Assembly (NCBI GenBank): GCA_029964075.1
Contig: CM057147.1
Span: forward strand, 11,801,513 to 11,865,512
DNA length: 64,000 nt
Direction: 5' to 3'
From: Patiria pectinifera
Taxonomy: Eukaryota; Echinodermata; Asteroidea; Valvatida; Asterinidae
Under the pieces are notes generated by a model. That model saw only the letters and a program-made list of their open reading frames with translations, was not told where the DNA came from and did no database searches. Made by a program: the position numbers and the translations under genes. Of this stretch, positions 42,651-64,000 are shown one piece after another (the first letter of the stretch is position 1; each line of letters opens with the position of its first letter).

Positions 42651-43149
42651 CTTATAACTCACCTCTCTCCAAAATGTAAAATAAGAAAAGAAACTCGTTC
42701 AGGGTTTCATAATTTAACTGTTTTTAGTTTAACAATTAACTCATAAGCAATTCAATTATAAGCAATATAACAATTAAAGGACTGCTTTTAGTTTCCCTAG
42801 ACTCAGTTTTTGAGTTAGAGTTTTTGAGAGGGTGCTGTAACCAGAGAAAACATTTTGAGTAGTGCCCCATCGGGCACAATACTCTGGAAATTATGCGCAC
42901 GCGATGTCTTGACGCACGTCTAGTTCACGCTGACAGGAATTTCATTCACTAGCTTACATGTATATGAGTGAACCACACGTGACCACACCCATACTTACAC
43001 GAAGGCATATATGGGGTACCAGATTGTGGGGTACCGATGTAAGTACAATTGCTCCTTGTGGGCCCTGAATATGGGGTCCTCAATTATTCCCCACAAGGAT
43101 TATCAGTGTTTCAAAAACACAAAATACCCCACAAAGTTACGAGTAAACA

Positions 43150-43633
43150 AAACTGTGCTTGAACAAGAAGCTCTTTAATAAATGAAACATTGAAAACCTT
43201 AAGTACAAAAACTATGCTTGTACAAGCATGGAGGAATTCCTCCATGGTACAAGAAACTCTTTAATAAATGAAACATTGAAAACCTTAAAAGTACACAAAC
43301 TATGCTTGTACAAGCATGGAGGAATTCCTCCATGGTACAAGAAACTCTTTAATAAATGAAACATTGAAAACCTTAAAAGTACAAAAACTATGCTTGTACA
43401 AGCATGGAGGAATTCCTCCATGGTACAATAAACTCTTTAATAAATGAAACATTGAAAACCTTAAAAGTACAAAAACTATGCTTGTACAAGCATGGAGGAA
43501 TTCCTCCATGGTACAATAAACTCTTTAATAAATGAAACATTGAAAACCTTAAAAGTACAAAAACTATGCTTGTACAAGAAAATCTTTAATAAATGCAACA
43601 GTGAAAACCTTAAAAACACGAAACTTTATGGTC
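43150..43633. repeat. 88-bp satellite, about five copies
   Basis: The unit has 'ctctttaataaatgaaacat', 'aactatgcttgtacaagc' and the perfect 20-base palindrome 'catggaggaattcctccatg'. Open frames repeat every 88 bp and are not genes. The array resumes at 43894 after an inserted MITE. Confidence 0.85.
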
Positions 43634-43893
43634 GGCCAAAAAAAAAGTTTTGCTTCCGGTTTACCCGACCTACCCTATTCGAACAGCCTCGGGCTATTTT
43701 TTTCAGGAAAAAAGGACCCTCCCCCCCCAAAAAAAAAACACCCACCCACAACATAAATTAGGCCCCTACTACCTTTAATATTTAAACCTCGACTACACGT
43801 AAGCTGTGTGCAAAAGAAATTCCCTACCTGGCTACCTACACATTTTCAAGTACCATGTAATAATGAATCGGAAACATAACTATTTTTGTGGCC
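43634..43893. mobile_element. GGCC-ended MITE inserted in the 88-bp satellite
   Basis: Begins 'ggccaaaaaaaaagttttgc', ends 'cataactatttttgtggcc'. TIRs and interior ('cggtttacccgacctaccct') match the copy at 36958. The satellite unit 'ttgtacaagaaactcttt' continues directly after it. Confidence 0.65.
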
Positions 43894-45474
43894 TTGTACA
43901 AGAAACTCTTTAATAAATACAACAGTGAACAATCAAATAAAAATACAAAATTTTGAAATTTCTGGTAAAGTTCTAGGAATGGATGCATGCAGCTGTGGTG
44001 CTTTGCCCAACTTCTCGTTCAGGAATCCCTTTGGTTCAGGAAAGAACTGAATCGTTCAATGCATGACTTAAAAGCATCCATAATGTCTGACCAGTCAATA
44101 GCCAATAACAACACATACTGTTGGGAAATGGCATGACATAAAATCATTCAATTTAAAAGAAAAAGATGCCATATAGACATATTGGTTTATTTTGCTTGCT
44201 CGATTGAGCAAGCTGCGTCAAAGGCAACAAGACTACAAGTTATTAAAAATGCAAACATCTGGGCTGTTTTCCAAACCCCAGCTTAGGCTCCATCACTATT
44301 GCCAAACTGCATGAACGAAGCCAAAGCGGAGACGAAGCTGGGGTTTGGAAAACGGCCACTGTGTTCCAGAAGATAAACAAAGGGATAGTTTGGAGGCCAA
44401 GTTGCATATATGATGGCAGGCTGATTATATGTAACAGTTGAAATTGTTGGTTTTGGCTAATACATTCAGATCTTGAAATATTACCCCCAAAACGGGTACC
44501 CGTAAAAGAAACCCTACCCCCCCCCCAAAAAAAAACAAATCTCAGAAGTTCCGTTTCAGCTTGTTTATAAATGAGTTTGCTTTATAAAGATGGAAACTGC
44601 AAATTCGCAAGTGTCATCAATTTGAAACATATTTTGTTTTCCTATGAAGCCTGGTTTCATTTTGAAAATTCCGATCAAATGACATTCAAAACCTTTTGCC
44701 TTCATCATCTGAAAAGTTACTACGTAGTTTACATAAAATTGAAAACGGGTACTCGATTCCATAATCTGGAATCGGTTCCTGACATCAACGGTCGGGTACC
44801 CGAGTACCCGGTTCCGATGCACAGCCCTACTTACTAATGAGTTTCCATTTCATGAGTTGTTATGTCGTAATACATTTGTAATTGTTAATATTTTTTCCTT
44901 AAGCCAGTATGTATTTTTTTTGTTATTTTGACATTTTCCTCATGAAATGACAATCTTTTGTGCAGATATATTTTTGTCTAGTGCGACAGTTTTATTTTTT
45001 ACTATGTACGTATCTCTAATAAGCGTGTTTGTATTTGGTGGTGGTGCAATGCCTTGCAAATGTAATATTTCCACAAACAATGATAACCATCCCATGGTAT
45101 GTAAAGAATTACAATGTATTTTTTTGTGTGCGCGTTTCCAGTCTACTGTTTTTTTCTTTGATGTGCTGGTGTAGCATAAATTTAAGACTCTATGAAATAC
45201 GGCCTCATTGGTAGTATTACGCATGCTTAATTAAGTGATGATCAGGATAATTAGGAGAGTGACCGGCACGTGAGAGGGTTTAACCAATAATATGGAAAAT
45301 GGGTACGATTTTCACTGGAGTCTTTTTTTCATATCATACCGTTACCAACACGTAAATTTGGCTGTATTAATCTAAAGCTATAAAACAGTAAATACACCAC
45401 GTGAATTTCCCGCTCGTTTTTTTTTCCGGTTATTTTCAGTTTATTTCTTCTTTTTTTTCACAACATAGCTTACC

Positions 45475-46110
45475 TGACCCGACCCGAACCAAAAATCCCA
45501 AAGCAAAACTTGACTGAAATGATGGAAAAACCGACCCGACTCGACTGAAATGATGGAAAAACCGACACAACCCGACTGAAATGATGGAAAAACTGACCCG
45601 ACCCGACTGAAATGATGGAAAAACTGACACGACTGAAATGATGGAAAAACTGACCCTACCCGACTGATATGATGGAAAAACCGACCTGACCCGACTGAAA
45701 TGATGAAAAAACCGACCTGACCCGACTGAAATGATGGAAAAACCGACACGACCCGACTGAAATGATGGAAAAACCGACCCGACCCAACTGAAATGATGGA
45801 AAAACCGACACGACCCGACTGAAATGATGGAAAAACCGACACGACCCAACTGAAATGATGGAAAAACCGACACGACCCGACTGAAATGATGGAAAAACCG
45901 ACACGACCCAACTGAAATGATGGAAAAACCGACACGACCCGACTAAAATGATGGAAAAACCGACACGACCCGACTGATATGATGGAAAAACCGACCTGAC
46001 CCGACTGAAATGATGGAAAAACCGACACGACCCGACTGAAATGATGAAAAAAACGACACGACACGACTGAAATGATGGAAAATCCGACACGACCCGACCC
46101 GGTCAGTTTC
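45475..46110. repeat. 31-bp satellite, about 20 copies
   Basis: Unit 'gaaatgatggaaaaaccgac' plus 'acgacccgact' (31 bp). Because 31 is not a multiple of 3, all three minus frames give related open frames (such as 45441-46112), which are not genes. Confidence 0.85.
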
Positions 46111-46844
46111 AAGTTGGGTCGGTATCGGTTCTGTTTTGCACATTACTTGCAAGTGTGTCTGCATGGAGTCCAATTCTCTGTGTACTGGACTAAGGTCAAA
46201 ATTCTACGTAAAATTGGCAGCAGGTAACGTTTACTTTAAGCTATAGATTTGGATACAGTCATAGCGACTAGGCCTAGAAACAGCCCTGTTGCAGCACTGC
46301 CATGTTTGAAAATGGCCATAGTAAGAAATTACTTCACCATCAAGAAAAGATTTTGCCATTTCTTACAGTAAATGTTCCACCAAGTAATGCATCGAGATGT
46401 TACAATTATTAACTTTTCACTATGGAAATCAACTTCAATTTCTTTGTTTCACAAACGCCCATATTAAAACCTGCAGTATCTATTGGTTGTCCACTTCATC
46501 TTCTAAATGAAAGTCAGAACATTTTAATTGGTACATCAAAGCAAAGTAAAATTTTTGACACGATATGGCTTACACAAAAATAAGAAAAAAACATGTACCC
46601 ATATAAAAAACTTTCACTGGGTATTCCAACATCATAATTTGTTCCTTCATCCTCATGCCATGCATAAATGGACAATAACAGTCTGTGTTTGCACTTCAAT
46701 CAAGTGCAACCTGCAAAATATGGACAGAGATGATCCTATTTGATACATGTATAAAATAGGGACATTTGCTGTAATGTGGAATAAATGTTAAAGTTAACAT
46801 TTTTCAACTGCCACAAGGATCAACTATGCAACTCGATGAATGTT

Positions 46845-47068
46845 TCAGTTATTTTCTTTGTCCCGTTCGATGCCACATAGAATAGTTTTCACCTTGTACT
46901 TAACATCCCTCCACGACCGCTGATTGAGAGCAGGATGCATTTTTTCCATGCATGCTTCACACTCACTTTTACCAGGAACTCTGTGACACTTTATTATTTC
47001 GTGTAGTCCTGTCCAAACAGCCGAAGTTTCGGATTTGCTCCATGGCCTTCGAGATTTGGGGGCAGTGC
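46845..47068 (-). CDS. Gene B last exon S8, Myb/SANT-like domain and stop
   Basis: Acceptor 'tctttcag', phase 1, stop TGA at 46845-46847. It encodes 'RRPWSKSETSAVWTGLHEII', 'CHRVPGKSECEACMEKM' and 'LNQRSWRDVKYKVKTIL', with the spaced Trp residues of a Myb/SANT-like (MADF-like) helix bundle. Such domains bind DNA. It matches the C-terminus I recall for related recombinase-like proteins. Confidence 0.8.
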
Positions 47069-50000
47069 CTGAAAGAAAAATCAATGCACACTGCAACTGA
47101 GAACTCGGGCAAGATTACACAACACAAAGTGGCTTTAATAAACAGATGGCTTTTGCTAGTTTTGTTCATTACATAAAATACGCCATTTGTGTGCAAGGAT
47201 TGAATAATCCAATGTTCACATTCCACATTCAAATTGTAGCCTTTAATAGTTTTGCTATTTCAATGGTCTCATAGACTGCTAGCTATTTGACCATCTCGAT
47301 ATATACATGTATAGACTGGGTTGAAACTGGTTACTGCAATCTGCCTTGTTGCTCAAATGATATAAGGAAAATGAGTTAAACCAACCATTGGACTTTCCTG
47401 TTGGCCTGGGACCTGGTTCTGGACACTGCATCGGGCTGGACACTACAGAGGCACGGACATCTGTCACATCTCCAGTGCGTTGTTTCTTCCTGGTGTGCGT
47501 TGTGGACCCTGCTGCTGCTTTGGAAGTACCGACAAAGCAAATATATATTATACAGCAAAGCAAAATGTTTTAATGTGTTTTAGAAGATATATCATTAGCC
47601 ACACCTTCCTGTTTTGGTAGTTTTGGTAGTTTTGGTATTATCTGCCAAGTCCCGTAACAAACAATCCATTACATTGTCTTGTACACAGCAGTAACCCCCA
47701 GCATGCTGTTCGATTTGCTTCCATCAAACACAGATTCCGTTGTTATTTGAGTTCCACTCAGGTACTGCAATTCGTCATTGCCGTTGTGAGTGACCACTTA
47801 GGTCTATCCAAATTTGTTTGTAAAACAAGAAATAATCTAATGCATTAGATCACTTTGATCTGAAATTACTTAAGTTTGCGACTTAATTAACATATGTCAC
47901 AAATAAGTATTTTGTGAGATGGTTTCAAACAGGCCTGCAGTACAGTAGCTTTCAAAAAGATAAGCTTTTTGCCGTTTCTGTGTCTTCAGCCTTTACGTAT
48001 TCTACCCCCTTTAAGAGTAGCACCAGTACTCAAATACAGTAGCGAGAATGAGTTAAACCAACCATTGGACTTTCCTGTTGGCCTGGGACCTGGTTCTGGA
48101 GACTGCATCGGGCTGGACACTGCAGAGGCACGGACATCTGTCACATCTCCAGTGCGTCGTTTCTTCCTGGTGTGCGTTGTGGACCCTGCTGCTGCTTCGG
48201 AAGTACCGACTGGATTATACAGCAACAGATTAACAATTGTGCATCAGCAGAAAACAATTACATTTCAGTTGTATTACATGCACATTTGTAAATTGTTTGC
48301 ACTAGGTTGGTCTGCAAATCTTTTTGACAGCAGCTGTTGCGGTAATGAGTTGCTTCTTCTTATGTGCTGGGCTGTTGCATTATACCAACATTTCTGGAGG
48401 AAAACCAGTAGTACACCCAAGGAAAAACAAACAAACAGTCATGTACATTATGCATGTATACAGCAAAAGGGGATTTTTCTCAGTAGGGTACTGTGTACAA
48501 AAACTAAAGAGGTATGTGTTTATAATGTTAAACACAAAGACACAATGGGACGTCCTTAGTTTGAGCCCATATACACAATTATTTGCACACATGTATGTTC
48601 ACTGCAGTGATGAGCCAAGCATTAATTCAATTCCTGAACCGGCTATTTACACTTGGTAGTTCTTGGCAAAGCAATTTAGCAAGAGTGAATCAATAATGCA
48701 AGAACATCACCCATTTCCAAACACAAATAATGGTTCTGGGCATTCAATATTAGAAACGGTTGTAACGGAAGTATGTACCTTGCGCTTCTTCAGTGTCTGA
48801 ATCCATATCTGGCACAGGAATGTCTGTAAGCAAAATAGTGAAAAAAAAAACCCAGAATAATAAGTTTACAAAATATACATTCAAAAACTTATGCATAAAA
48901 TATGCATGCTAGATTCCATCAAAACACCTGCAGCTACATGTATGACTGGGCATGGAAAAATACGGAACAATTCATAACTTTGAGTGTCAACACTAATATC
49001 AATCATGTGGCATACACAACATCAAGTGACGCGGCAATGATGAATTAAATCAATTATCAGGAAAACAAAGCTTGTGTACATGTACTATGAATTTAGTCAA
49101 AATTTACTGACAGGTTTGTTTGCAACTTTCCAATGATGGAATGCAGCTGTTATTTTATATTTACTTGGGCATAATAAGGAGAAAAGTAGGAGATACGCAT
49201 TCTGATCACTAGGTAAATCTTAAATTGTCTAAGCTCCACATGTATCTAAAATGATTGAAAACTTAATGAGCAATTCTAGTTATGAGCTGTTGCAAAAAAT
49301 GAATGCAAAGTTGAGGTCGGTGGCATGACAGTATAAGGTGCAGGGTCTTCATCAGAGGCTAAATTCAAGACCCTGATGAAGACCCTGCAAGGGGTAAACA
49401 TTAGGCTACTGACTACAACCTCTAAAGCTTGAATATATGACACTCACCATCAAGATCTATTTCGTCCAGGGACTTCCCCACAAACTTCCCTACATTGCCA
49501 CTGTCAATGGCCAACATAAGTTTGGCTACTTTTGTCAGTTCGATAGTGGGTGCAGAGAGACGATAGTAGTCTCTGTGAACATTGATGCTGTGTCCAAGAT
49601 GGTCTGCTAACCAATCCAACTGAGAGTCCTTGAGGTTGAGGATCTGGCTGACTGTTGCTGTATACTTTCGCATTTTTGTGGTGCGAATTAGATGCGGTTT
49701 CTGCAAATTGGCTTCCTTAGTGAGTTCTCGCAGACTATCACAGGCTCGTAGGTTGGTGTTACAGCCAGGTCGAGCAAAGAAGTATGGATTCTCTTTGGGT
49801 ACCCCACAAACATCACGACAAGTTGTCAGCTGATCCATCGCTGCCTTGGTCTCTGCCGGAATCAGAATGGGTACTTTCCTCCCGCGTTTACCACGTGTAT
49901 ACACCATATCCAATTCCTGCATTAGGTGGCGTTCAAGAGGCGTCAGATACTGCTTTATGTCGGAGATACTTGCTGCATCCCAGTTGGGCCGACTTGTATA

Positions 50001-53000
50001 CGACTTGAGACTACATGCAAAAAAAGAGGGTTTTTTAAGTACATGTTGAAGTGTAATAATAGGGTTTAAAAAGATTTTAACATTTGCTTGGTGGAAAGAC
50101 AATATACACTAGTTAGAGGTTTGTGGATGCACAATGTGTTTCATCTCTTTTATGGTTACATGTATGTGTGGCTCTGAGAAGAACCAGGTTTACTCAACAT
50201 ATATCAAACATATGTATGCTCTGTTTGCATTCAGGAGGCTGAAGATGGATAGAGCATACTGTTTGAAATGTCGAGTAAATGTGGCCAGTTCTTCTCAGAA
50301 CCACATACATGTATACTCACCAAAGAGATCAACAAACCTCTAGTGTAAGGGGTTGAAATACATTTTTATTGCCAATTTCATAACCAATTCACAATGAACA
50401 GGCATACATCATTGATTCTAGTCGTTGGTGCACCATCTGATATTTTTAACTGACAAACATAGCTGGGCACATTTATCGTTACATGTTTTCAGTGGTGGCT
50501 GACATGTCCACTATTAAGTACTCAATGTTGGCAACACCCCGATGAAATTATCAGCTAAACCATAATGCATAAAAGATGTCAAGCAGGAAAAGTGTATTAT
50601 TATCCCAGAGAGAAAATTGGGTATTGACTCCAAGATGTTTGTGACTATTAAACATTTTAGGAAGTTGATAAATAAGAGCAAATATGAGCAAGTCCTTGTG
50701 ACATTAACACAACTTACGCAAGCTGCTCTGTTTCGCCTGTTCTTCGTTTGTTGAAGGTTGTGAGTCGAGCAAGGACTAACTCACTACATCTCCGAAAATT
50801 CACGGCAGATGCTCGTTGTTCCAGGTTCACCGTTGCTTTCTCGATGTTTTCTTGCAGGAATGATGTGAACATTTTTACATCATCAGATTCAGGAAGCTCT
50901 GTAACCTTGTTATACTTGCGCTGAGAAATTTTGCCAAGGACTTCTGATGAGATCTGCTCGGCCCATTCAGCTTCTTTGAGCTTAAGGAAACACTTGGCCT
51001 CCTGCTCAGCTTTCTTGTCTCCTCTTCTCAGGGCTGAACACCTTTTGATTGCCGCCAATTTGGAAAGAGTCTGGCCCAGTTTTAAGGCAACTGAAGGTCG
51101 CTCATTTTCATCAGTCTGGCCTGATGTCAAGCGCACACCACGTACCACAGCGTCAAACTTCTGGGGCTCAATAAAGTCATCTACTAAAGCATTTGACTGT
51201 GTGATCTCATGTAGATTGATCATAAGCCTTGCAGCCAGTCGCATTTCTTGAGCAACATAATGCCTTTTTCTCTGCGGTCCATCCCAAAAGTGCGACGACT
51301 ATGTGCATTTCCCAGCTGAATTATTAGGGATCTTGCTTCACCACTTGGGATATCTTGTCCTGCTTCATTCCTACTAGAACAGTTTTCACCAATGTGGATG
51401 CTTCTGCGAAATCATTCATGAGTAGACAACTTTCAAGCTTTACATCTCTGAAACTGTCTTCGTGTCTATTTCACTTTCCTTGGCAATGCAGTAGTACTTC
51501 ATGTGCTTTCGAAAGTCACTGGTGCGATAAAACCCCAAGCAATCTGGGCAGGGCCCATAGTCTGTGCTGTCACTACCATCATCTGAAGGTCTTCTAACCA
51601 GTATGAGCTCTCCTTGCTTCAATTCCTTGACCATTTTGTTGTGGTAAAATTTCCACGATGTCGCAAAAGTTCAAAAGCTTTGGCCCTCTCTGTGGTTTTA
51701 ACTTCCATCGATGCAATCCTTTTCACTTCTTCTTCATCTTTGTGAGCATGTAGTAAATGCTTGCTGATTTTTGTTACAAGTTTAGAACAGAAAAGCAAGC
51801 CTGACGCTTGTTGTAAACTCTCTGTTTTGTTTCTTTACTTCTTGAGACAGGGGGGAAATATATCGTATCTCTATCAGGAGGGATTTTGGATTCATCAGAA
51901 AAGTGCATGTCATCATCTGAAACACACAGAGATTCGTCACTACCATCAGGGGTGTTGCCATCACCATGTCCATCAGAAGACTTCTCATCAGGAACTGTCG
52001 AGCCATCAAGACAAGAACCAACAGGACAGGCCCTATCAGTAACTGGCAAACATGAAGATGGTGAATATCTCACACTGGCATGTGATGCAACACCACTTAC
52101 AATGTGAGCAGTACTACTAGCCCTTTCCCCTTTGCCAGTGGGACAGTTTTGCAGTACACAAGAATCAACAAGCTTAGAAGAATCTCCATTTGCCTGAGAA
52201 TTATTGTCATCACAAGCAGTGTTTTCCCCCGACACAGAAATCAAGTGTTGACAATCTCCAGCACTGTCATTTTGCATACTCGCCAACAAAGACATGACGT
52301 CACAACTTACGAACTGTGCCACACCATCAGCAGCAGGTGACATGGCCATGTCTGCATGAGCAACTTCTGTACCAAGTTCTTGAGGGGTAGAGCATGATGA
52401 ATTGAGGTATGTTTCATTGTACAGAAATACAGGAACTGTGGCTCTGTCTGAAGTTTCCATCAATGGTTTTCTCGAGTTGCACGGTAGTGGAATGATGAAA
52501 GAGATCTCTGAACTTGTATCAGAGTCCTCTACATATGACTTGTTTGGAGAAACATCAGCAGGGCATTTCCTTTTGTCACTGGCTACGGAGTCCTTAGTAG
52601 CCTGAGCGTCAGCACAGTATTCCATGTGGCCATCGGCTGTAAAGTTCCTGTTAACCCAGGTGTCAATCAGCAAGATATCACCATTGGCTGCAGAGTCCCT
52701 AGATGCCTGAGTGTCAGCAGGGCAATCCACGTGACCATAGACTGCAGTGTCCCCAGTAGCCCGAGTATCAATAAGACTTTTCATGTGGCCATCGGCTGCA
52801 GAGTCACCAGAAGCCTGAGTTTCAGCAGGGCATTCCATGTGACCATCGGCTGCAGAGTCACCAGAAGCCTGAGTTTCAGCAGGGCATTCCAAGTGGCCAT
52901 CGGCTGCAGAGTCACCAGAAGCCTGAGTTTCAGCAGGGCATTCCATGTGGCCATCGGCTGCAGAGTCACCAGAAGCCCGAGTTTCAGCAGGGCATTCCAA

Positions 53001-56000
53001 GTGGCCATCGGCTGTAGAGTCACCAGAAGTCTGAGTTTCAGCAGGGCATTCCATGTGACCATCGGCTGCAATGTCACCAGAAGCCTGAGTTTCAGCAGGG
53101 CATTCCAAGTGGCCATCGGCTGCAGAGTCACCAGAAGCCTGAGTTTCAGCAGGGCATTCCATGTGGCCATCGGCTGCAGAGTCACCAGAAGCCTGAGTTT
53201 CAGCAGGGCATTCCATGTGGCCATCGGCTGCAGAGTCACCAGAAGCCTGAGTTTCAGCAGGGCATTCCAAGTGGCCATCGGCTGTAGAGTCACCAGAAGC
53301 CTGAGTTTCAGCAGGGCATTCCATGTGACCATCGGCTGCAGAGTCACCAGAAGCCTGAGTTTCAGCAGGGCATTCCATGTGGCCATCGGCTGCAGAGTCA
53401 CCAGAAGCCTGAGTTTCAGCAGAGCATTCCATGTGGCCATCGGCTGCAATGTCACCAGAAGCCTGAGTTTCAGCAGGGCATTCCATGTGACCATCGGCTG
53501 CAGAGTCACCAGAAGCCTGAGTTTCAGCAGGGCATTCCATGTGGCCATCGGCTGCAGAGTCACCAGAAGCCTGTGTTTCAACAGGGCATTCCATGTGGCC
53601 ATCGGCTGCAGAGTCACCAGAAGCCTGAGTTTCAGCAGGGCTTTCCATGTGACCATCGGCTGCAATGTCACCAGAAGCCTGAGTTTCAGCAGGGCATTCC
53701 ATGTGACCATCGGCTGCAGAGTCACCAGAAGCCTGAGTTTCAGCAGGGCATTCCATGTGGCCATCGGCTGCAATGTCACCAGAAGCCTGAGTTTCAGCAG
53801 GGCATTCCATGTGACCATCGGCTGCAGAGTCACCAGAAGCCTGAGTTTCAGCAGGGCATTCCATGTGGCCATCGGCTGCAGAGTCACCAGAAGCCTGTGT
53901 TTCAACAGGGCATTCCATGTGGCCATCGGCTGCAGAGTCACCAGAAGCCTGAGTTTCAGCAGGGCATTCCAAGTGGCCATCGGCTGCAGAGTCCCCAGCA
54001 GCATGAGTGTCAGGCTGAAACACAATTATAGTATTTTCATTAGATGAATTACACTAGGACTCGTTTAAAAATTGATGATAAGTGTTGATGGTGTTTGATT
54101 ACGACAGTGGTTGTAGTGGTGCATCTGCTCCACCACTCGTCCTTTTGACTGCAATCAGCATTTTCTTTAATGAAAAAAACAGAGAAATGTTTGTGTTTAC
54201 CTGCAGCTGGTTCCATGGGAGGTCTTTTTCAGAAATCCCATAATCATACAGGATCTCTTGTCCAGGAGATATATTGCGCAGGGCAAACAGGCAGAGTGTT
54301 GGCTGTGAGTCTATTCGAAGCACCTTTACATGTGCATTCTGTTGTCGTTTAGTGCCATGGTTGACTAGCCTCCCTAAGATCAGTCCTTCCCCATCAGGTT
54401 CTCTGGTTGCATCCACACTTGAATAATAACAATGGGAAAAACAACAAATCCATTTTAAATGGAATCACATAGTGATGCAAATTGGTTGTTGAACAGTCGT
54501 GTACATTTGCACAAGCCATGTACATTTGCACAAAAACATACCCCACATGGTAACCAGTGTGGGGTTGGTTGGTTGTGGGAACCATTTACATGCAGCACAC
54601 AATGTTTGACTGTTACTATCGTATTTGAACAAGTACCCCACATGGTAACCAGTGTGGGGTTGGTTGGTGGTGGGAACCATTTACATGTAACACACAATAT
54701 TTCACTGTTACTACCGTAATTGAACAAGTACCCCACATGGGTGCAGACCAGTAAATCGGTCCGAAATTGCCTGCGCCGGCCAATCACGATTTGCATGCCC
54801 TCAAAATCTTCGGTATTTGAGCATGCTGTGGGCCATGAACTTGAGGGTTTGTTAAAAATATGGATGGAAACCGTGCACAGGACTTGGAGCTTGCAGTTCT
54901 GTGTAATTTTGATGTAATTTGGACCCTAAAAGCGCTCTACTTTGCAATGGAGTGTAGGCGTCCATTTTCAAAATGGCGATGGGCTTCAGGACTATTTTCA
55001 GGGGTGATCGTCTTCAGATGGAAATTTCTCCTAAAAGTCATCAGTTGACCCCCCGTAAATTTAACAGAAATTGAAAGATGATGAAATAAGCTTTAATTTG
55101 ATGTGTGTCTCTAACACCTTGGAGAGTTGTGAGTATTTTTCCCGAATTTTTGAAGTGGGAGCATTTACCATTGGGGTCTATGGAAGTTTATTTACTGGTC
55201 TGCTACCACATGGTCCCCAGTGTGGGGTTGGTTGGTTGTGGGAACCATTTACATGTAGCACACAATGTTTGACTGTTACTACCGTAATTGAACAAGTACC
55301 CCACGTGGTCCCCAGTGTGGGGTTGGTTGGTTGTGGGAACCATTTACATGTAGCACACAATGTTTGACTGTTACTACCGTAATTGAACAAGTACCCCACA
55401 TGGTACCCAGTGAGGGGTTGGTTGGTGGTGGGAACCATTTACATGTAGCACATAATGTTGACTGTTACTACCGTAATTGAACAAGTACCCATGGTACCCA
55501 GTGAGGGGTTGGTTGGTGGTGGGAACCATTTACATGTAGCACACAATGTTTGACTGTTACTACCATAATTGAACAAGTACCCCACATGGTACCCAGTGAG
55601 GGGTTGGTTGGTGGTGGGAACCATTTACATGTAGCACATAATGTTGGACTGTTACTACCGTAATTGAACAAGTACCCCACATGGTAACCAGTGTGGGGTT
55701 GGTTGGTTGTGGGAACCATTTACATGTAGCACACAATGTTTGACTGTTACTACCATAATTGAACAAGTACCCCACATGGTACCCAGTGAGGGGTTGGTTG
55801 GTGGTGGGAACCATTTACATGTAGCACATAATGTTGGACTGTTACTACCGTATTTGAACAAGTACCCCACATGGTAACCAGTGTGGGGTCGGTTGGTTGT
55901 GGGAACCATTTACATGTAGCACACAATGTTTGACTGTTACTACCGTAATTGAACAAGTACCCCACATGGTACCCAGTGAGGGGTTGGTTGGTGGTGGGAA

Positions 56001-59000
56001 CCATTTATATGTAGCACATAATGTTTGACTGTTACTACCGTAATTGAATAAGTACCCCACATGGTCCCCAGTGTGGGGTTGGTTGGTGGTGGGAACCATT
56101 TACATGTAGCACATAATGTTTGACTGTTACTACCGTAATTGAACAAGTACCCCACATGGTACCCAGTGAGGGGTTGGTTGGTGGTGGGAACCATTTACAT
56201 GTAGCACATAATGTTGGACTGTTACTACCGTAATTGAATATTGGTAACCAGTGTGGGGTTGGTTGGTGGTGGAAACCATTTACATGTAGCACATAATGTT
56301 GGACTGTTACTACCGTTTTTGAACAAGTACCCCACACTTTACAAAGCAGAATTAGAGTAAAAAAGATTGGAATATGTTTTTTGGAAAATGGAAAGCATTT
56401 TTGAAGATCAAACTTGTTTTTAAATGCAATGCATTTAAAATCAGAACTTGTTTCAAAACATCGAATGTATTTTTCCAAACCGGATGAAATTTTACATACC
56501 GAACATCTATACGATTCGAACGCATTTCCTAAAACTGAATGCAATTTAACAGACCTGTAACATCTTTTTACAATTCGAATGCATAATTTCTTAAAACAGA
56601 ATAAAATATTACAGACCTAATATGTTTTTACGATTCAAATGCATTTCTCAAAATCTAATGCAATTTTACAGACCTAACATATTTTTAAAATTCGAATGCA
56701 TTTCCTAGAACCGAATGCAATTTTACAGACCTAACATGTTTTTACAGACCTAACATGTTTTTACGATTCGAATGCAGTTCAAACCTAATGAAAGTTTACA
56801 AACCTACACTCCAATGCAGATAACCCGACATGAAACAGCCGTATATGTTTTGAATTTGAAAAGCGTTTCAATCTTTTTGGCCACATTCAGCCCGAATTTT
56901 ACCGATGATCCGAAGTGCACCCAAACCTGCGTGAACCTGGCCGCGTATTCGGCCCGATCCTCCAGCCCCGTATTCACGTAGTACGGAGGCCAATAAACAA
57001 CACTATAGTTATGACTTTTAAAAACCATTGTTTCTGCAACAAAACCGCCACATTGAGGACTAACATGACTAAAGAGCAGTCAAAATGCCCATGACATAAA
57101 AAAGGGTGTTGCCCTGTCTACACTAGTTTTTTCCCTGTTTTAAAGGGGTATAGGTTTTCCCCCTACAATTTGTTGTTCCTTTTACTCAGTCTTGTGAATT
57201 TCTCATTTCTTTTGTTGGTTTACTGGGATGGGTCCACTAGGTCCCCTCGTAGTTTACTTGTTTTCAATATTTAAATGTTTATATTTTTCATATTTTAATT
57301 TTTGATATGAAATGCCTTGTATTGATATTTTTACATCTTTTTAAGTATGTTTTCCTACAACTGTTTATTATTTTATGTTTAGATTGGCTTATTTTGTAAA
57401 AACTGCAAAGTGCCTTGAGGGTCTTTTAGGCGGATTTTGGCGCTTTATAAATATCCATTATTATTATTATTATTATTACACTTTATTTTGGTTTCAGCTG
57501 TATGAGGTGTTGCACATCAAGTTTTGCAGTTTTTACAAAATAAGCCAATCTAAACATTATAATTATAAACAGTTGTAGGAAAACATACTTAAAAAAAGAT
57601 GTAAAAATATCAATACAAGGCATTTCATTGAAATATGAAAAAATATAAACATTTAAATATTGAAAACAAGTAAACTACGAGGGGACCTAGTGGACCCATC
57701 CCGAGTAAACCAACAAAAGAAATGAGAAATTCACAAGACTGATTAAAAAAAGGAACAACAAATTGTAGGGGGGGGAACCCTATACCCCTTTAAAACAGGA
57801 AAAAAACTAGTGTAGACAGGGCGACACCCTTATTTATGTCATGGGCATTTTGACTGCTCTTTAGTCCTCAATGTGGTGGTTTTGTTGCAGAAACAATAGT
57901 TTTTAAAACTCATAACTATAGTGTTGTTTATTGGCCTCCGTACTACGTGAATACGGGGCTGGAGGATCGGGCCGAATACGCGGCCAGGTTCACGCAGGTT
58001 TGGGTGCACTTCGGATCATCGGTAAAATTCGGGCTGAATGTGGTCAAAAAGATTGAAACGCTTTTCAAATTCAAAACATATATACGGCTGTTTCATGTCG
58101 GGAAATCTGCATTGGAGTGTTAGGTTTGTGACCTTTCATTCGGTTTTCGAACTGCATTCGAATCGTAAAAACATGTTAGGTCTGTAAAAACACGCTAGGT
58201 CTGTAAAAATGCATTCGGTTTTAGGAAATGCATTCGAATCATACAAACACGTTCGGTCTGTAAAATTGCATTCGGTTCTAGGAAATGCATTCGAATTGTA
58301 AAAACATGTTAGGTCTGTTAAATTGCATTTGGTTTTAGGAAATGCATTCGAAAATCATAACGCCATGTCCAGCTGCGAAACACGAAACGAATTCCAGTGT
58401 TGTTATTCCGCGAAGTTATGATGGGCTTGATAAGTCGATGTACGTGATCGGTCCATCGCGCTGCGCTATTGGTGGATTAAAAAGGCAAGTAACGTTCGAG
58501 TTATCCTACACAAGCAACCCATCGCGCAACACAGATCTGCGCGATCATCCAATAGTGCAGATTGGCCAGATCGCGCTCAACATAAACGTGCACACAATCA
58601 TGAGTATAAACTGGTTTCCTACTTCGACTACGTAAAGTGTATATGAGTTTTGTGGGAATCATCGAAATTGCAGTTTCTCACATACTGCATACGTATAAGC
58701 CGGACATGGCTTATACATTGCCTAACGCTATGTATGAATCGAATCCTTGTACACGTCCATGTGGCATAGGAATTAAGTGCTGTTTTTGTGTGCCGGTGGG
58801 GCCAGGGACGGGCGAACTTCCCATGCGGTGCGCCATCAAAAATCATGGTACTCTCGCTATTTTACCCTACTTTATTTTATTTTCCCCTCATGTGTTCAAA
58901 AATCATACTCATATGATTTTCAAAACTTTTAACACTTAAAAATTGTAACAAATACGATAAAATCGTACTAGTTGGCAGGTATGCTACCGTATTTGAACAA

Positions 59001-61925
59001 GTACCCCACATGGTAACCAGTGTGGGAGTGGTTGGTTGTGGGAACCATTAAATGGTGTGCTAAAGGTAAATTTTACCTTTAGCACACAATGCTTGACTGT
59101 TACTACCGTATTTGAACAAAGTACCCCACATGGTAACCAGTGTGGGGTTGGTTGGTTGTGGGAACCATTTACATGTAGCACACAATATTTCACTGTTACT
59201 ACCATATTTGAACAAGTACCCCACATAGTAACCAGTGTATGGTTGGTTGTGGGAACCATTTACATGTAACACACAATATTTGATTCACCGTATTTGAACA
59301 AGTACCCCACATGGTAACCAGTGTGGGGTTGGTTGGTTGTGGGAACCATTTACATGTAGCACACAATGTTTGACTGTTACTACCGTAATTGAACAAGTAC
59401 CCCACATGGTACCCAGTGAGGGGTTGGTTGGTGGTGGGAACCATTCACATGTAACACACAATATTTGATTGTTACTATCATTGAACAAGTACCCCACATA
59501 TGGTAACCTGCAGTGTTGGAGCAAAGGCTTTAACCCTCAAGGCCAAGGCCAAGGCCAAGGCTTTGACCCTCAAGGCCAAGGCCAAGGCCAAGGCTTTGAC
59601 CCTCAAGCCTCGAGGCCAAGGCCAAGGCTTAACCCTCAAGGCCAAGGCCAAGGCCAAGGCCCTGTTTTATGATATGACCACTGATATAGAACTAATTATA
59701 GTCACATGAGTGACACATCATCACGCAAGGGCGTCTCCAGAACACACATTTTTTTGGGGGGGGGCAAAGAAATTTTGGTCCCCCAAAAAAGTGGGTTAAA
59801 AAATTACGGCTTGGGCTTCGGAGCCCGCTTAAGGGCCCCGAAAAATTTTGGATTCGAGATGCTCTGTGGTGCGATTTGAGGCAATTTCTGACCATTTTAA
59901 CCGATGTTTTTTGAGGAAAAGATGGTGGTGTACTCATTGCCTGCCTTTATTACGACGTCACATAAAAACAAAAAATGGTTTCGTTTTTTTTTTGAGGGGG
60001 GGGGGGGGGCATGGCCCCTTTTGGCGCCCCTGGATCCGCCCTTATCATCCGGAATTGCTTGTTACGAAGAACAACATTTCTTTAATTGCAATCAACATGC
60101 TCGCATAGGCCTACACTGTTTTATGACTGCATCTATTAATTATCTATTAAAGTATAAGTTCAGGTCTTCAGTATGGTTTAACTAAACAAAATAATGATTT
60201 ACTTCTATATTGACACACAATTCTCCCAAGTGTAACAAAAGGGGATCCAAGAAACTGATTTGGGAAATTTTTATTTGCTGGCCCAACATGGTCAGAAATA
60301 TCAGCATTATCTAAAACAGATACATGCAAATCTTTAGCACTTATCAGGGAGACATACATGTATACAACCAATCAGATCTATTCCATAGTTATATGCAATT
60401 AAAGTGATCATCTCATTAGCTCCACAAGTGTACAGACTATTTTTGCAGCAAATCTACTACAATGGTAACAAAATGTGATGCTACAAAAGTGGACGTGTGC
60501 CCAACACACAAATCTATAGGGTGCTTCCCTCCTCCATGGTAATACGATTAAAATGGTAACAGCAAAATTTCGAACAGATTTATCTGGAAAATGCAAAAAT
60601 CTATGGGCCTTGAAGAGCCTTGACTCAAATTTGCAAGGCCCTGAACCCTCAAGGCCAAGGCCAAGGCCAAGGCTTTTGCACTCAAGCCTCGAGGCCAAGG
60701 CCAAGGCCCTAAAATCCAGCCTTAAGGCAGCCTTAAGGCCAAGGCCCAGCATCAAGGCACTACATCACTGGTAACCTGTGTACATGTGGGGTTGGTTGGT
60801 TGTGGGAACCCCTTTGCATTCATTGTTAAACAGCCATACATTTCCACAAGTACCCCACGTGGTAATACCAGTGTGGGGTTTTGTGGAGTTGGGTGACTCT
60901 GGAACCAATCAATTGCCAGTCATTGCTTTACAGGCCCAGCACATTTTCAATTGCACATGGCGGTTGTTGTTATCATCTACATGTAGCACCCACTGTTTTT
61001 TACAAGCGTACATGTACAGTACATTTGCACACAAGTACCCCACATGGCAAGCAGTGTGGACTTGGCTGGTGTTGTACTATTTGGCAGTTTGTGCTTCACA
61101 TACCGGGCCATTTTTAACACCCCCACCTCCCAACAGTTACAAGTCTGTTTTAGTTTTCAAAAACAAAACATGTAATACAGTAATTCCCAGGATAGAAGTA
61201 AAAATAAAATAAAACTTACCACATCCTAATTATTCTATTGTGTGAAGTGCTTGGAGTGGTGAAGAAAAATCGAAAACATGAGCCTTCTTCCTTCTCTCTT
61301 TGCCTTCCCTCTTCCTCTGATATGAGGTCGCCATTATATATGCACAGAAATTCCCCCTTATGAATTTGTTCAGTTGCAAACACACCTCTTCCTGTTGACA
61401 TGGCAAAAAGTGAACAATTCTGTAAATATACCATTTGTTCATTGTAGTCACTGAAAATAGAATTGTCCCATTCAAAGCTGTTTAAAATGTGCAACTTGAT
61501 CAGAACTGCGAATACTATCGGACATTGAGTCAACTCAATGTTCTACAGAAAGATCAGCTGAACAAGTACTTTTGAGGTGCAGTATATCCACGACCTAATA
61601 ATGAATCATCTTGGGCTTCTATCTTGGTCAGCAAAGACTGGAATCAGAGATTTCAGGATAAAATCTCAAACACCAAACCAAAATACTAACATATACTTCC
61701 CTAAACCTTATAAAATGAGCTTTCGCTTCAAATTTCTTGCAACAAATAGTATTTTATAGAAAAACCAATGTGCGATATGTCTTACCTTTAGAAACTGTTT
61801 CCTGCACGACAAACTTCTGCAGGTCCCTCCCAGTCCGTTTTGATGTTGTAGCAACATCAATTGGGTTCACTGCACCACTTCGAGCAGATTTGCGAGTTTT
61901 CCTTGGTGATCCACCAGGATGGACT
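46845..61925 (-). CDS. Gene B: SET (KMT5A-like) + 18-aa repeat + zinc fingers + tyrosine-recombinase-like + Myb/SANT-like protein
   Basis: Eight minus-strand exons join with consistent phases, except for frameshifts inside exon S4. Domain order: basic N-terminal tail, SET domain (S2-S3), about 27 tandem 18-residue units and acidic linker (S4), C2H2- and C2HC-like fingers and a helical region (rest of S4), tyrosine-recombinase-like catalytic fold (S5), low-complexity linker (S6-S7), Myb/SANT-like domain and stop (S8). The SET part should methylate a lysine and the other parts bind DNA, but activity is unproven: SET 'NHS' reads NHG and the recombinase box II His is Tyr. I recall related recombinase-like proteins in fish and cnidarian predictions, often labelled KMT5A-like; this needs a search. 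The first exon is not in the model (S1 starts in phase 2 and lacks Met). It may be a domesticated Crypton-type element or a mobile gene. Confidence 0.75.
47386..47532 (-). pseudogene. Duplicate of exon S7 with a broken splice acceptor
   Basis: About 95% identical to S7 with the same length and donor 'gttggt'. Differences include RKKRR to RKKQR and S to C. At the place of the acceptor AG the copy has TG ('gctttg' before the exon), so inclusion by normal splicing is unlikely unless another AG is used. Confidence 0.72.
48063..48209 (-). CDS. Gene B exon S7, basic linker
   Basis: Acceptor 'taatccag', donor 'gttggt', phases 1 to 1. It encodes 'GTSEAAAGSTTHTRKKRRTG' and 'SPEPGPRPTGKSN', a Pro/Ser/Lys-rich linker with a nuclear-localisation-like RKKRR. 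A near-identical copy lies at 47386-47532. Confidence 0.75.
48779..48823 (-). CDS. Gene B micro-exon S6 (45 bp)
   Basis: Acceptor 'cttacag', donor 'gtacat', phases 1 to 1. It encodes the acidic 'DIPVPDMDSDTEEAQ'. Clean splice signals and matching phase on both sides support it. Confidence 0.7.
49448..50010 (-). CDS. Gene B exon S5, tyrosine-recombinase-like domain
   Basis: Acceptor 'tgcatgtag', donor 'gtgagt', phase 2 in and 1 out, fully open. It encodes 'YLTPLERHLMQELDMVYTRG', the beta-strand 'KRGRKVPILIPAETKAAMDQ', 'ENPYFFARPGCNTNLRACD', and box II 'TTKMRKYTATVSQILNLKDS' then 'LADHLGHSINVHRDYYRLSA'. The pattern R..(H/K)..A...LGH(S/D)...Y fits phage-integrase/Crypton recombinases, with Arg, the LGH His and the nucleophile Tyr present and the box II His changed to Tyr. 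It would cut and rejoin DNA if active; loss of activity with retained DNA binding is plausible. Confidence 0.8.
50718..54014 (-). CDS. Gene B exon S4: 18-aa tandem repeats, acidic linker, zinc fingers, helical region; about five frameshifts
   Basis: Acceptor 'gtgtttcag', donor 'gtaagt', phase 0 in and 2 out. It begins with about 23 near-identical units 'ASGDSAADGHMECPAETQ' and four decayed ones, followed by an acidic Ser-rich linker. Next come two finger-like blocks (C-x2-C...H-x4-H ending 'KLVTKISKHLLHAH'; and 'CPDCLGFYRTSDFRKHMKYY' plus Cys). Helical segments follow, 'CLLMNDFAEASTLVKTV' and 'MRLAARLMINLHEITQ', ending at 'RTGETEQLA'. To keep these blocks in one protein, one base must be missing at about 51791-51794 (T run), 51646-51649 (T run), 51446, 51327-51329 (C run) and 51294. 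Without correction, translation stops at 51774. Confidence 0.72.
52770..54010. repeat. 54-bp coding minisatellite within exon S4
   Basis: About 23 copies of a 54-bp unit ('gtcaccagaagcctgagttt', 'cagcagggcattccatgtgg'). The unit is 18 codons, so other frames stay open on both strands too. Single-base variants (gca/gta, gag/atg, gac/gcc) distinguish units. Older units at 52620-52770 are strongly diverged. Confidence 0.92.
54201..54417 (-). CDS. Gene B exon S3, C-terminal half of SET domain
   Basis: Acceptor 'attattcaag', donor 'gtaaac', phase 2 in and 0 out. It encodes 'VDATREPDGEGLILGRLVNH' and 'LCLFALRNISPGQEILYDYG', the KMT5A-type 'VDATRE...GRLxNHS' and 'EELLYDYG' blocks. The catalytic-region Tyr of YDYG is kept; the Ser of the NHS motif is Gly (NHG). 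Confidence 0.87.
54530..56340. repeat. 95-bp satellite, main array
   Basis: The unit contains 'gaacaagtaccccacatggt', 'gggttggttggttgtgggaa' and 'ccatttacatgtagcacaca', repeating every 95 bp (open frames step by exactly 95). The part 'ccccacatggt-accagtgtgggg' can form a hairpin. It lies in the intron that splits the SET domain. A 460-bp element interrupts it at 54743-55203. Confidence 0.92.
54743..55203. mobile_element. 460-bp TIR element inserted in the 95-bp satellite
   Basis: Ends are exact 14-bp inverted repeats, 'gcagaccagtaaat' and 'atttactggtctgc'. Satellite sequence ('ccccacatgg') lies on the left and 'accacatggtcccc' on the right. No transposase frame, so it is non-autonomous. Confidence 0.72.
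56341..58983. mobile_element. Fold-back element with about 0.9 kb arms inside the satellite
   Basis: The left arm (about 56510-57412) and right arm (about 57524-58352) are reverse complements at high identity; for example 56930-57030 pairs with 57895-58000. The loop of about 110 bp holds (ATT)n. Outer arm parts are tandem units of about 58 bp ('cgaatgcatttcctaaaac', 'acagacctaacatgttttta'). Long inverted repeats with repeated outer ends resemble FB/Galileo-type elements. The 58.35-58.98 kb segment has no mirror partner. Confidence 0.75.
58984..59510. repeat. 95-bp satellite, second block
   Basis: Resumes with 'accgtatttgaacaagtacc' after the fold-back element, five to six units, some shortened. 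One unit has 'taaaggtaaattttaccttta', a perfect small palindrome, at 59060-59080. Confidence 0.85.
59511..60770. mobile_element. 1.26 kb hAT-like non-autonomous element
   Basis: Begins 'cagtgttggagcaaaggc' and ends 'gcactacatcactg', with an exact 8-bp target duplication 'gtaacctg' at 59503-59510 and 60771-60778. An 8-bp duplication with CAGTG termini is diagnostic of the hAT superfamily. Near both ends are tandem AAGGCC/CCAAGG units (59525-59665 and 60630-60750). No transposase was seen. Confidence 0.85.
60771..61070. repeat. 95-bp satellite, degraded end
   Basis: 'tggggttggttggttgtggg', 'aagtaccccacgtggtaata' and 'aagtaccccacatggcaagc' mark decayed units before exon S2. Confidence 0.7.
61220..61391 (-). 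CDS. Gene B exon S2, N-terminal half of SET domain
   Basis: Acceptor 'gtcaacag', donor 'gtaagt', phase 1 in and 2 out. It encodes 'GRGVFATEQIHKGEFLCIYN' with the SET GxG cofactor-binding motif, then 'GDLISEEEGRQREKEEG', matching the KMT5A pattern 'GDLI...AKxRE'. Confidence 0.85.
61786..61925 (-). CDS. Gene B exon S1, basic N-terminal tail
   Basis: Acceptor 'aattacag', donor 'gtaaga', phase 2 in and 1 out. It encodes 'VHPGGSPRKTRKSARSGA' and 'TSKRTGRDLQKFVV', a Lys/Arg/Ser-rich tail like those before KMT5A-type SET domains. No Met occurs, so an upstream exon is required. Confidence 0.7.
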
Positions 61926-62884
61926 CTGTAATTTCCAAAGCATTTTAGTTGTTTTAAAATTTCAAAAGTGAAAGGGGGGGGGAGGGGGCATAAATTTTCG
62001 GTGCCCCCACCACACAAAAACTTGGTGTGCGTGTGCAAAAAAAGACGGCGCTGTCAAAGTGAATCCATGCGTGCGTGCTGCAGGCGGGGATCACAAAACG
62101 TCTTTAAACCAAGACTACAGTGCGCGTTGTCAATATCAGTGAAGTCACCATCAGCGATACGTGAATTTCAACCTGTGAACATTGCTCCACATTTTGAGGC
62201 CTCATTTTCTCACTTTTTTGAAAGGTAAGAATTAATACACCGATAGTGTTCGTGTCTTCCTTGATCCTTAGCGCTTTGTGGGGGCAAGCAGCAGTTTTGT
62301 AAGCGGCCGTTTTCCGTGACTTTTTGTGGCGATTAGTGTGGTAGATCATGGGGGGTTCGATGTGCAGACTTTTTGAACAACATCTCGTAGGGCTCTTGCT
62401 TGGACCCTACTAACTATCACCCGACCATGTCCAAATATTAAAAAGGTGATAAGTTGGGTCCAAGTTACGCGGACTACGATATTGTTGATGTATCGGATAG
62501 CATGCAAAATGTCGTTTGAAAAAAATTGACTCCCTTTGGAACATCAGAACTTTCAAAAAAAAAAGGTGTAATTTCACCAAATTTTCAACGTGTTGTAAAG
62601 TTCACATAGGCCCTAACTCGTAGGTGGGTGATTCCATAAATTTGGGGTCCACTTTGGTGTCCCAGTTACATCTGACATAATGTAAGATTTTGTAATTCAG
62701 TACACATGTCTCTAAGCGTGATTGCAGTTGTACAGCATTATGGAGAAACACGTTGCATCGTAGAGTCGTAGCTTTTTCGACAGTGGGATTTTGGACTTCC
62801 TGATCCAGATTTTCCAAAAGGACTGGAAGGCTATGTTGCCAATTACATGACGTGCAGTACATGTAGGTAAATGTACTACCGGTA
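61926..62884. other. Upstream region of gene B exon S1, no exon recognised
   Basis: The missing upstream exon of gene B should be here or farther right. G-runs occur at 61974-61990. A donor-like 'gaaaggtaagaat' lies on the plus strand near 62221. No coding signature was recognised. Confidence 0.45.
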
Positions 62885-62887
62885 CAT

Positions 62888-63905
62888 GTAGGTCTAATAC
62901 TAGTCCGAGTAACTTGGCCGCACAAATCGCCTTTTTTAACATTTGGACAGGTTTGGCGATAGTAGCGTCCAAGCGCAAACTCGCATTGAAATCCCTGTGT
63001 GTGACACGCGTCCACAAAAAAAACAAAAAAAACCTTGATCATTTTCAGCCCCCAAATAGCCGTAAAACGACAAGATATGCAGCCTAAGACATGTAAGATA
63101 TCTGTAGACTTCCCTGATTAAGTGGGTGGTATACTGGTTGACTTACCATCTGGACGGAAAGTTGAATTTGCAGCTATATTCCGACAAGTTATTCTCACCG
63201 TACCACTGCGTCGCGTCGTTCACATAAAATTTATTTGAATTGTCAGCTACATTGTTGTTATGTTATTGTCATGTGACCCCGGGGCTCACGTGACGTGACG
63301 TGCATAATCCCATTTAGGGGGGGGGGGAACAATTTTCTCATGCGATAAAAAGGAGTTTTTGGGCATCCAATCTTAACATCTTGTCTTTTATAGTTGACAA
63401 AAAGGTTGTTACTTCTAAAGATGTTTAGATTGGATGCCCAAAACTCCTTTTTATTGCATGAGAAACTTTTGTCCCCTATTTTAAGAATGGGATTATGCAC
63501 GTCATGTCACGTGAGCCCCGGGATCACATGACAATAACATAACAACAGCTGACAATTCAAATAAATTTTACGTGAACGACGCGACGCAGTGGTACGGTGA
63601 GAATAACTTGTCGGAATATAGCTGCAAGTTCAACTTTCCGTCCAGATGGTAAGTCAACCAGCATACCACCCACTTAATCAGGGAAGTCTACAGATATCTT
63701 ACATGTCTTAGGCTGCATATCTTGTCGTTTTATGGCTATTTTGGGGCTGAAAATGATCAAGGTTTTTTTTGTTTTTTTTGTGGACGCGTGTCACACACAG
63801 GGATTTCAATGCGAGTTTGCGCTTAAGGACTCTACTATCGCCAAACCTGTCCAAATGTTAAAAAAGGCGATGTGTGCGGCCAAGTTACTCGGACTCGTCT
63901 AATAA
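62888..63905. repeat. 1 kb near-perfect palindrome
   Basis: The left arm (about 62888-63378) and right arm (about 63416-63905) are reverse complements with few differences, for example 'gattaagtgggtggtatact' against its partner near 63665. The centre is near 63397. Each arm holds the same short open frame ('WYGENNLSEYSCKFNF') ending in a 'gtaagt' donor, and another ('VDACHTQGFQCEFAL'). The short spacer and high identity imply a recent fold-back element or inverted duplication. Confidence 0.85.
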
Positions 63906-64000
63906 GGGCCTAATTTTGACAAACTTACCTTATGCAATATTTAGAACGATAGACAGCCATATAATTGTACTAAAGCAACGAATGTACCCAGCAGCAAGCC

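Follow-up and report, generated by a model that had tools for sequence, protein, structure and literature searches.

The window, i.e. the whole stretch of 64,000 bases analysed here (C19:11801513-11865512 of the 613.5-Mb genome of the sea star Patiria pectinifera), carries a fused gene on its minus strand, at 46845-61925. The eight exons of this gene are bounded by AG acceptors and GT donors, with phases matching at all junctions, and exon 8 closes at a stop codon. They encode a SET domain, a repeat linker, zinc-finger-like motifs, a tyrosine recombinase (YR) and a putative Myb/SANT-like domain (Table 1). The gene is itself included in an element of about 21,900 bases (21.9 kb).

Table 1. Features of the fused gene and of the element that carries it (window positions).
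Feature	Position	Strand	Description
Left end	42986..43034	+	Six variable bases, then TACTTACAC, then two TGGGGTAC motifs
Mobile element	42986..64000, running on for 869 bases beyond the window to C19:11866381 (window coordinate 64869)	gene on -	Same two ends in five copies, different flanks
Exon 8	46845..47068	-	Myb/SANT-like C-terminal domain (label from motif spacing) and stop
Exon 7	48063..48209	-	Linker
Exon 6	48779..48823	-	Short acidic linker
Exon 5	49448..50010	-	Remaining YR catalytic domain (Lys, TxxR, LGH, Tyr)
Exon 4	50718..54014	-	About 25 18-residue repeats, two zinc-finger-like motifs, YR N-terminal part with Arg I
Exon 3	54201..54417	-	SET domain, second half (VDATRE, VNHG, YDYG)
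95-base tandem arrays	54539..56336	+	Unit carries the subterminal motif GTACCCCA
Exon 2	61220..61391	-	KMT5A-type SET domain, first half
Exon 1	61786..61925	-	Internal exon of the model; basic N-terminal stretch ahead of SET

Outside the element, a LINE-type element with an endonuclease and a reverse transcriptase (Pfam) is found at 3932-6970. Its frame presents three changes, each opposite in direction to those of exon 4 described below (by eye). On the minus strand, between 1326 and 42000, many exon-like frames contain repeated VTVRGYN-like motifs and perhaps belong to one large extracellular protein; the two frames that were scanned had no Pfam match. A single tRNA-like Rfam match (34682-34788) contains a duplicated 34-base piece, and ARAGORN detected no tRNA at this position.

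Structure of the fused gene

The translation of the spliced exons 1-3 is a complete SET domain (Pfam E 9.6e-22), in agreement with the SET motifs listed by the first-pass annotation. The best PDB match of this domain is KMT5A (5w1y, E 2.2e-18). Among solved SET domains, the KMT5A/SETD8 chains come at the top with 66.6-70.2 bits, the next one reaching 48.5, and the KMT5A type already attributed to this domain is thereby supported. Like KMT5A/SETD8/PR-Set7, the SET of the window has GRG, VDATRE, NH and YDYG motifs; unlike them, it sits in the first exons and is fused to a YR, whereas the SET of canonical KMT5A is located at the C-terminal end (PMC10368294). The NH motif is altered in two relatives, L032 and L033 (on C20 and C10), so that methylation may not persist in all members.

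Exon 4 contains, at 52681-54013, about 25 copies of a 54-base unit encoding 18 residues. These units form a coding minisatellite. The length of the exon varies from 2762 to 3297 bases across the five copies of the element, and two relatives display different repeats where the window has its 18-residue units. The two zinc-finger-like motifs of the same exon were recognised by eye. The domain encoded by exon 8 has no Pfam match; the Trp-spaced C-terminal domain noticed earlier ahead of the stop is present, and it is called Myb/SANT-like from motif spacing only. Of its 19 matches in the genome, 16 lie downstream of a YR match at a distance of 20 kb or less. Weak matches to CTD9, CagY_I, Lactonase, Rdx, TDBD and the like were set aside as chance or repeat effects. 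Two other repeats affect this region. The exon 7 region is duplicated (47352-47533 vs. 48029-48210, 94.5% identity), the copy at 47352-47533 having no AG acceptor, and the large intron contains an inverted repeat pair of about 840 bases (56574-57409 and 57523-58352, 90.7% alike).

A simple scan 5' of exon 1 found no upstream coding exon with an ATG. As exon 1 starts at an acceptor, the 5' end of the gene is therefore missing from the model. Moreover, in the window copy the frame of exon 4 shifts five times in the interval from about 51790 to 51280, each time in the same direction. The consistent phase announced for the eight exons by the first-pass annotation is thus verified at the junctions and fails inside exon 4. 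The other copies of the element show one change (C20, C15 and C21) or none (C8) in this exon, and the five changes are therefore private to the window copy. They may represent either true decay or errors of the assembly consensus; as assembled, the window copy is unable to make the full protein. All YR searches with the window gene used only the sequence past the last of these frame changes.

Copies and ends of the element

From about position 42986 on, the DNA of the window recurs on C20, C15, C8 and C21 together with its introns and spacers. Counting these copies and comparing their ends, as the first-pass annotation had proposed, gave five full copies of 20197-21884 bases, all with the ends found at window coordinates 42986 and 64869 and each in different flanks. 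Two more copies, both partial, are located on C7; one of the C7 regions that were fetched (L026-L027) contains no matching block of at least 150 bases. Long matching blocks between copies are mostly 98-99% identical, and identity ranges from 95.5% to 99.3% when all blocks of at least 2 kb are considered, the lowest ones crossing or adjoining repeat-rich parts.

With the large tandem arrays left aside, the other copies differ from that of the window by 0.12-0.39% of substitutions in exons, against 0.35-0.81% in introns and 0.23-1.34% in the rest of the element. Judging from these values, the copies are recent and their coding part is the slower-changing one. Indel events are not fewer in exons (1.19-2.09 per kb) than in introns (1.07-2.15 per kb), all of these comparisons being influenced by the frame changes that only the window copy has. 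Exon lengths in the four other full copies are identical to those of the window in 27 out of 28 cases (seven exons compared, exon 4 excluded). The sole exception is exon 7 on C20, shorter by one base; on C15, exon 5 keeps its length but shows two gap positions. All the compared exons retain their AG acceptor and, ahead of an intron, their GT donor. Ends that are identical while the flanks differ, together with the low divergence, argue that these copies moved recently. At the level of DNA sequence, the mobile nature of the element is shown. The mobile origin suggested by the first-pass annotation is supported against a single-copy one; its other suggestion, a domesticated gene, is unsupported for these copies.

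Ten other open frames (of more) were scanned in the window part of the element, with no Pfam match better than E 0.013; to judge by these scans, the fused gene is the only recognised gene of the element. An imperfect palindrome of about 1 kb with arms 91.4% alike is also present inside it (62899-63898).

The left-end query has nine matches in the genome, i.e. the five copies and four members of a second element family, whose left end is 76-78% identical over up to 92 bases. All nine left ends present about six variable bases, then TACTTACAC (TAATTACAC in one of them), then TGGGG motifs. The right-end query has six matches, corresponding to the five copies and to one site on C7 at 97%. The motif T(A/G)TGGGGTAC is found twice in the first 300 bases of the element and three times, inverted, in the last 300 bases, which also contain one direct copy. 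The interior of the element carries 19 inverted copies, mostly in the 95-base arrays, and the 42.9 kb of the window to the left of the element carry none. No terminal inverted repeat was seen by eye in the five copies. Where the short (4-6 base) terminal direct repeats of a Crypton would be expected, the element shows six variable bases at the left end and an imperfect likeness at the right end. A script search for target duplications in the copies found only short or low-complexity matches, none of them clear.

The 14 bases preceding the left end contain on average 8.67 CA/AC steps, against 1.86 for the window background, a value reached by 0 out of 200000 resamples. Taken singly, seven of the nine left flanks show a clear CA enrichment (background P <=0.0053), the flank on C20 is borderline (P 0.052) and one flank on C7 is not enriched. 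The left flanks on C15 and C8 share a related repeat, and these two insertions may consequently not be fully independent. By eye, three of the five right flanks are CA-rich. Such ends and such a preference for CA would fit a YR that needs only a short likeness between a circle and its target.

A distant recombinase family and its association with SET domains

We searched the genome with the exon 5 protein and obtained 104 matches of the YR family. Fifteen of them were fetched for their long open frames and their spread of identity; a near-duplicate (L040) was dropped and the remaining 14 were aligned with the window sequence. The residues R186, K235, R308, H334 and Y343 are identical in the 15 aligned members, a choice of relatives made partly on open frames being favourable to intact motifs, and the usual first His of HxxR is a Thr in all 15. 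The recombinase-like box with LGHS and Tyr described by the first-pass annotation is present.

The family was compared by hhalign with a reference YR alignment containing XerD, lambda Int and Cre, without XerC, and eight YRs of the same genome (ten fetched, two near-duplicates dropped). The alignment of the two profiles covers 192 columns and keeps the catalytic residues in register (E 0.001, score 34.1); the probability that hhalign itself attaches to this match is 21.5%. In comparison, the maximum score was 19.1 for 100 column shuffles and 26.0 for 100 block shuffles, and reversed profiles scored 12.9 and 11.6. The match to the eight YRs of the same genome alone is weak (E 0.15). In PDB, the family profile matches XerA best, with an E of 0.072 for the whole sequence and of 1.9 for the best single stretch. 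Phage_integrase (Pfam) matches 1 out of 15 members (E 0.001), as does XerC of NCBIfam (E 0.015), the latter no better than unrelated families. The window YR alone gave no useful match in Pfam, PHROGs or PDB, and close-likeness searches of viral contigs, phages and prokaryote genomes found no relative. From the controls and the invariant residues, the assignment of this putative enzyme to the YRs is well supported, though distant, and the group appears to be hardly recognised by Pfam. The genome has 113 Phage_integrase matches, none of which overlaps one of the 104 family matches or lies within 2 kb of them.

The Crypton type proposed by the first-pass annotation is unsupported in the strict sense. 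None of the 15 family YRs matches DUF3504 (PF12012) at E up to 10, and the 45 DUF3504 matches of the genome are all more than 20 kb away from the 104 family YR matches.

Among the 87 SET matches found in the genome (scores were obtained for 150 of 169 candidates), 54 have a YR match on the same strand within 20 kb downstream. This number falls to 2 when the YR is searched upstream and to 0 when the strand is flipped; it is on average 0.45, and at most 4, in 2000 random shifts. These counts are those of exon pieces and involve 38 distinct YR matches. For the remaining 33 SET matches, which include host genes, no YR of this kind lies in the same 20-kb interval. The association of SET with a YR recurs in diverged family members of this genome: even for YRs only 28-30% identical to that of the window (on C4, C21, C7 and C12), a SET match is located 7.5-8.7 kb upstream. 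In addition, relatives on C20 and C10 encode the second SET half, the zinc-finger-like motifs and the YR in a single open frame of 1359 and 1117 aa, respectively; here the fusion is supported independently of any splicing. On C10 the first SET half occupies a separate frame, and it was not detected in the stretch fetched for the C20 relative. As far as genomic sequence can tell, the fusion is demonstrated, and the union of a chromatin-modifying domain with a recombining one claimed earlier is supported, with SET, YR and the Myb-like domain in one gene.

The distribution of these sequences between chromosomes is uneven. C7, which measures 44.85 Mb (7.3% of the genome), carries 54 of the 104 family YR matches, as well as 21 of the 113 Phage_integrase and 5 of the 45 DUF3504 matches; it may be a repeat-rich or a sex chromosome. 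Two further pairs of KMT5A-like SET halves, L004 (C7:18506717) and L005 (C7:6581668), have stops between their two halves, as an intron would give, and no YR match within 20 kb downstream.

Origin of the fused gene and significance for KMT5A-like families

We consider, with a probability of roughly 0.84, that an animal DNA transposon moving by its own YR has recently inserted at five or more places, the window holding one of these insertions, and that its gene combines SET, a repeat linker, zinc-finger-like motifs, the YR and a Myb/SANT-like domain. The zinc fingers and/or the Myb-like domain would bind the TGGGGTAC motifs near both ends of the element. The YR, with its R, K, R, H and Tyr nucleophile, would cut and join these ends, and movement would probably go through a circle. 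Insertion at CA tracts would then leave about six variable bases beside the conserved end and no clear target duplication. SET may methylate H4K20 or another lysine on the bound chromatin, aiding access, expression or escape from silencing.

Several known elements can be compared with this one. Starships are fungal giant YR elements with a DUF3435 captain, and DUF3435 is absent from the Pfam matches of the 15 members. With the Tn916-type YR transposons, which are bacterial and conjugative and in which short variable stretches adjoin the conserved ends, the likeness would lie in the ends alone. SETMAR likewise has SET and a transposon enzyme in one protein; it is a single domesticated gene, in which SET is fused to a mariner transposase, a DDE enzyme. 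Its SET chain 3bo5 is among the PDB matches to the window SET. Polintons (Mavericks) have a protein-primed polymerase, a DDE integrase and long inverted repeats; no such Pfam match was obtained in the frames scanned. It is very unlikely that the gene is a passenger of a larger element mobilised by a different enzyme, e.g. Polinton-like or DDE, with an incidental YR: the large size of the element (about 20-22 kb) and its long non-coding arrays might suggest it, but the ten other frames tested (of more) gave no second recognised gene, and neither a terminal inverted repeat (by eye) nor a clear target duplication (by script) was found. A remnant of a DIRS- or Ngaro-type retroelement, or a true Crypton, is very unlikely. 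Such an origin would account for a YR without classical inverted repeats, and conventional YRs and DUF3504 domains do occur in the same genome. However, the same ten frames contain no reverse transcriptase, the introns kept in the copies argue against copying from spliced RNA, and no member matches DUF3504, the domain that Kojima and Jurka report for the YRs of animal Cryptons (PMC3212892). The element resembles the Cryptons of animals (CryptonA) as a YR-encoding DNA element in which no terminal inverted repeat is seen by eye; these authors describe animal Cryptons as having no terminal repeats found and no C-terminal domain, and their movement is thought to go through a circle (PMC3212892). 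The Crypton catalytic residues R-H-R-Y are present in the family as R186, R308, H334 and Y343. The gene of the window differs from Cryptons by its introns, its SET, its zinc-finger-like and Myb-like parts and a YR that does not match DUF3504.

It is also unlikely that the gene belongs to a host family of H4K20 methyltransferases, in which a C-terminal domesticated recombinase would only bind DNA and the copies would come from segmental duplication. Genes of similar layout have been interpreted as a host family in Hydractinia, Hydra and sea urchin, where some are activated in the embryo (PMC10368294), and the slower accumulation of substitutions in exons than in introns goes in the same direction. 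Nevertheless, the ends are the same on five chromosomes although the flanks differ, and the left end has a related counterpart in a second family; both facts are against it, and domestication with segmental duplication is ranked lower because these ends are shared among copies. Moreover, the catalytic residues are invariant in 15 out of 15 members, whereas DUF3504 domains have lost most of theirs (PMC3212892).

The transposon reading may also concern other animals. According to a 2023 study of Hydractinia embryos, KMT5A-like genes number 65 in Hydractinia, 24 in Hydra and 61 in the sea urchin S. purpuratus, and most of those of Hydractinia and sea urchin have an N-terminal SET of the SETD8 type (PMC10368294). 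The longer genes have a conserved C-terminal end in common, and the thirteen activated early in Hydractinia are non-adjacent and highly divergent (PMC10368294). All are treated there as predicted H4K20 methyltransferases, and the words recombinase, integrase, Crypton and mobile are absent from the main text of this article (PMC10368294). By their published description, on which this comparison is based, the genes of Hydractinia and sea urchin show a striking match of layout with the window gene. In zebrafish, Region-2 of chromosome 4 contains four SET genes of one gene tree (PMC11075544). In the open-licence PMC literature, as far as it was covered, no published SET-YR element was found.

With slightly less than even confidence, we tentatively propose that an old class of animal YR transposons carries its own KMT5A-type methyltransferase, and that the "expanded H4K20 methyltransferases" of Hydractinia and sea urchin, perhaps together with the SET genes located on chromosome 4 of zebrafish, belong to it. 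Such elements would mark chromatin by H4K20 methylation for their own movement or for expression in the early embryo. The element of P. pectinifera probably represents a new form of YR transposon in an animal, one that joins its recombinase to its own histone methyltransferase domain. It would also be a warning for annotation pipelines that label such genes KMT5A-like, and some of the gene families counted as chromatin enzymes may be mobile DNA.
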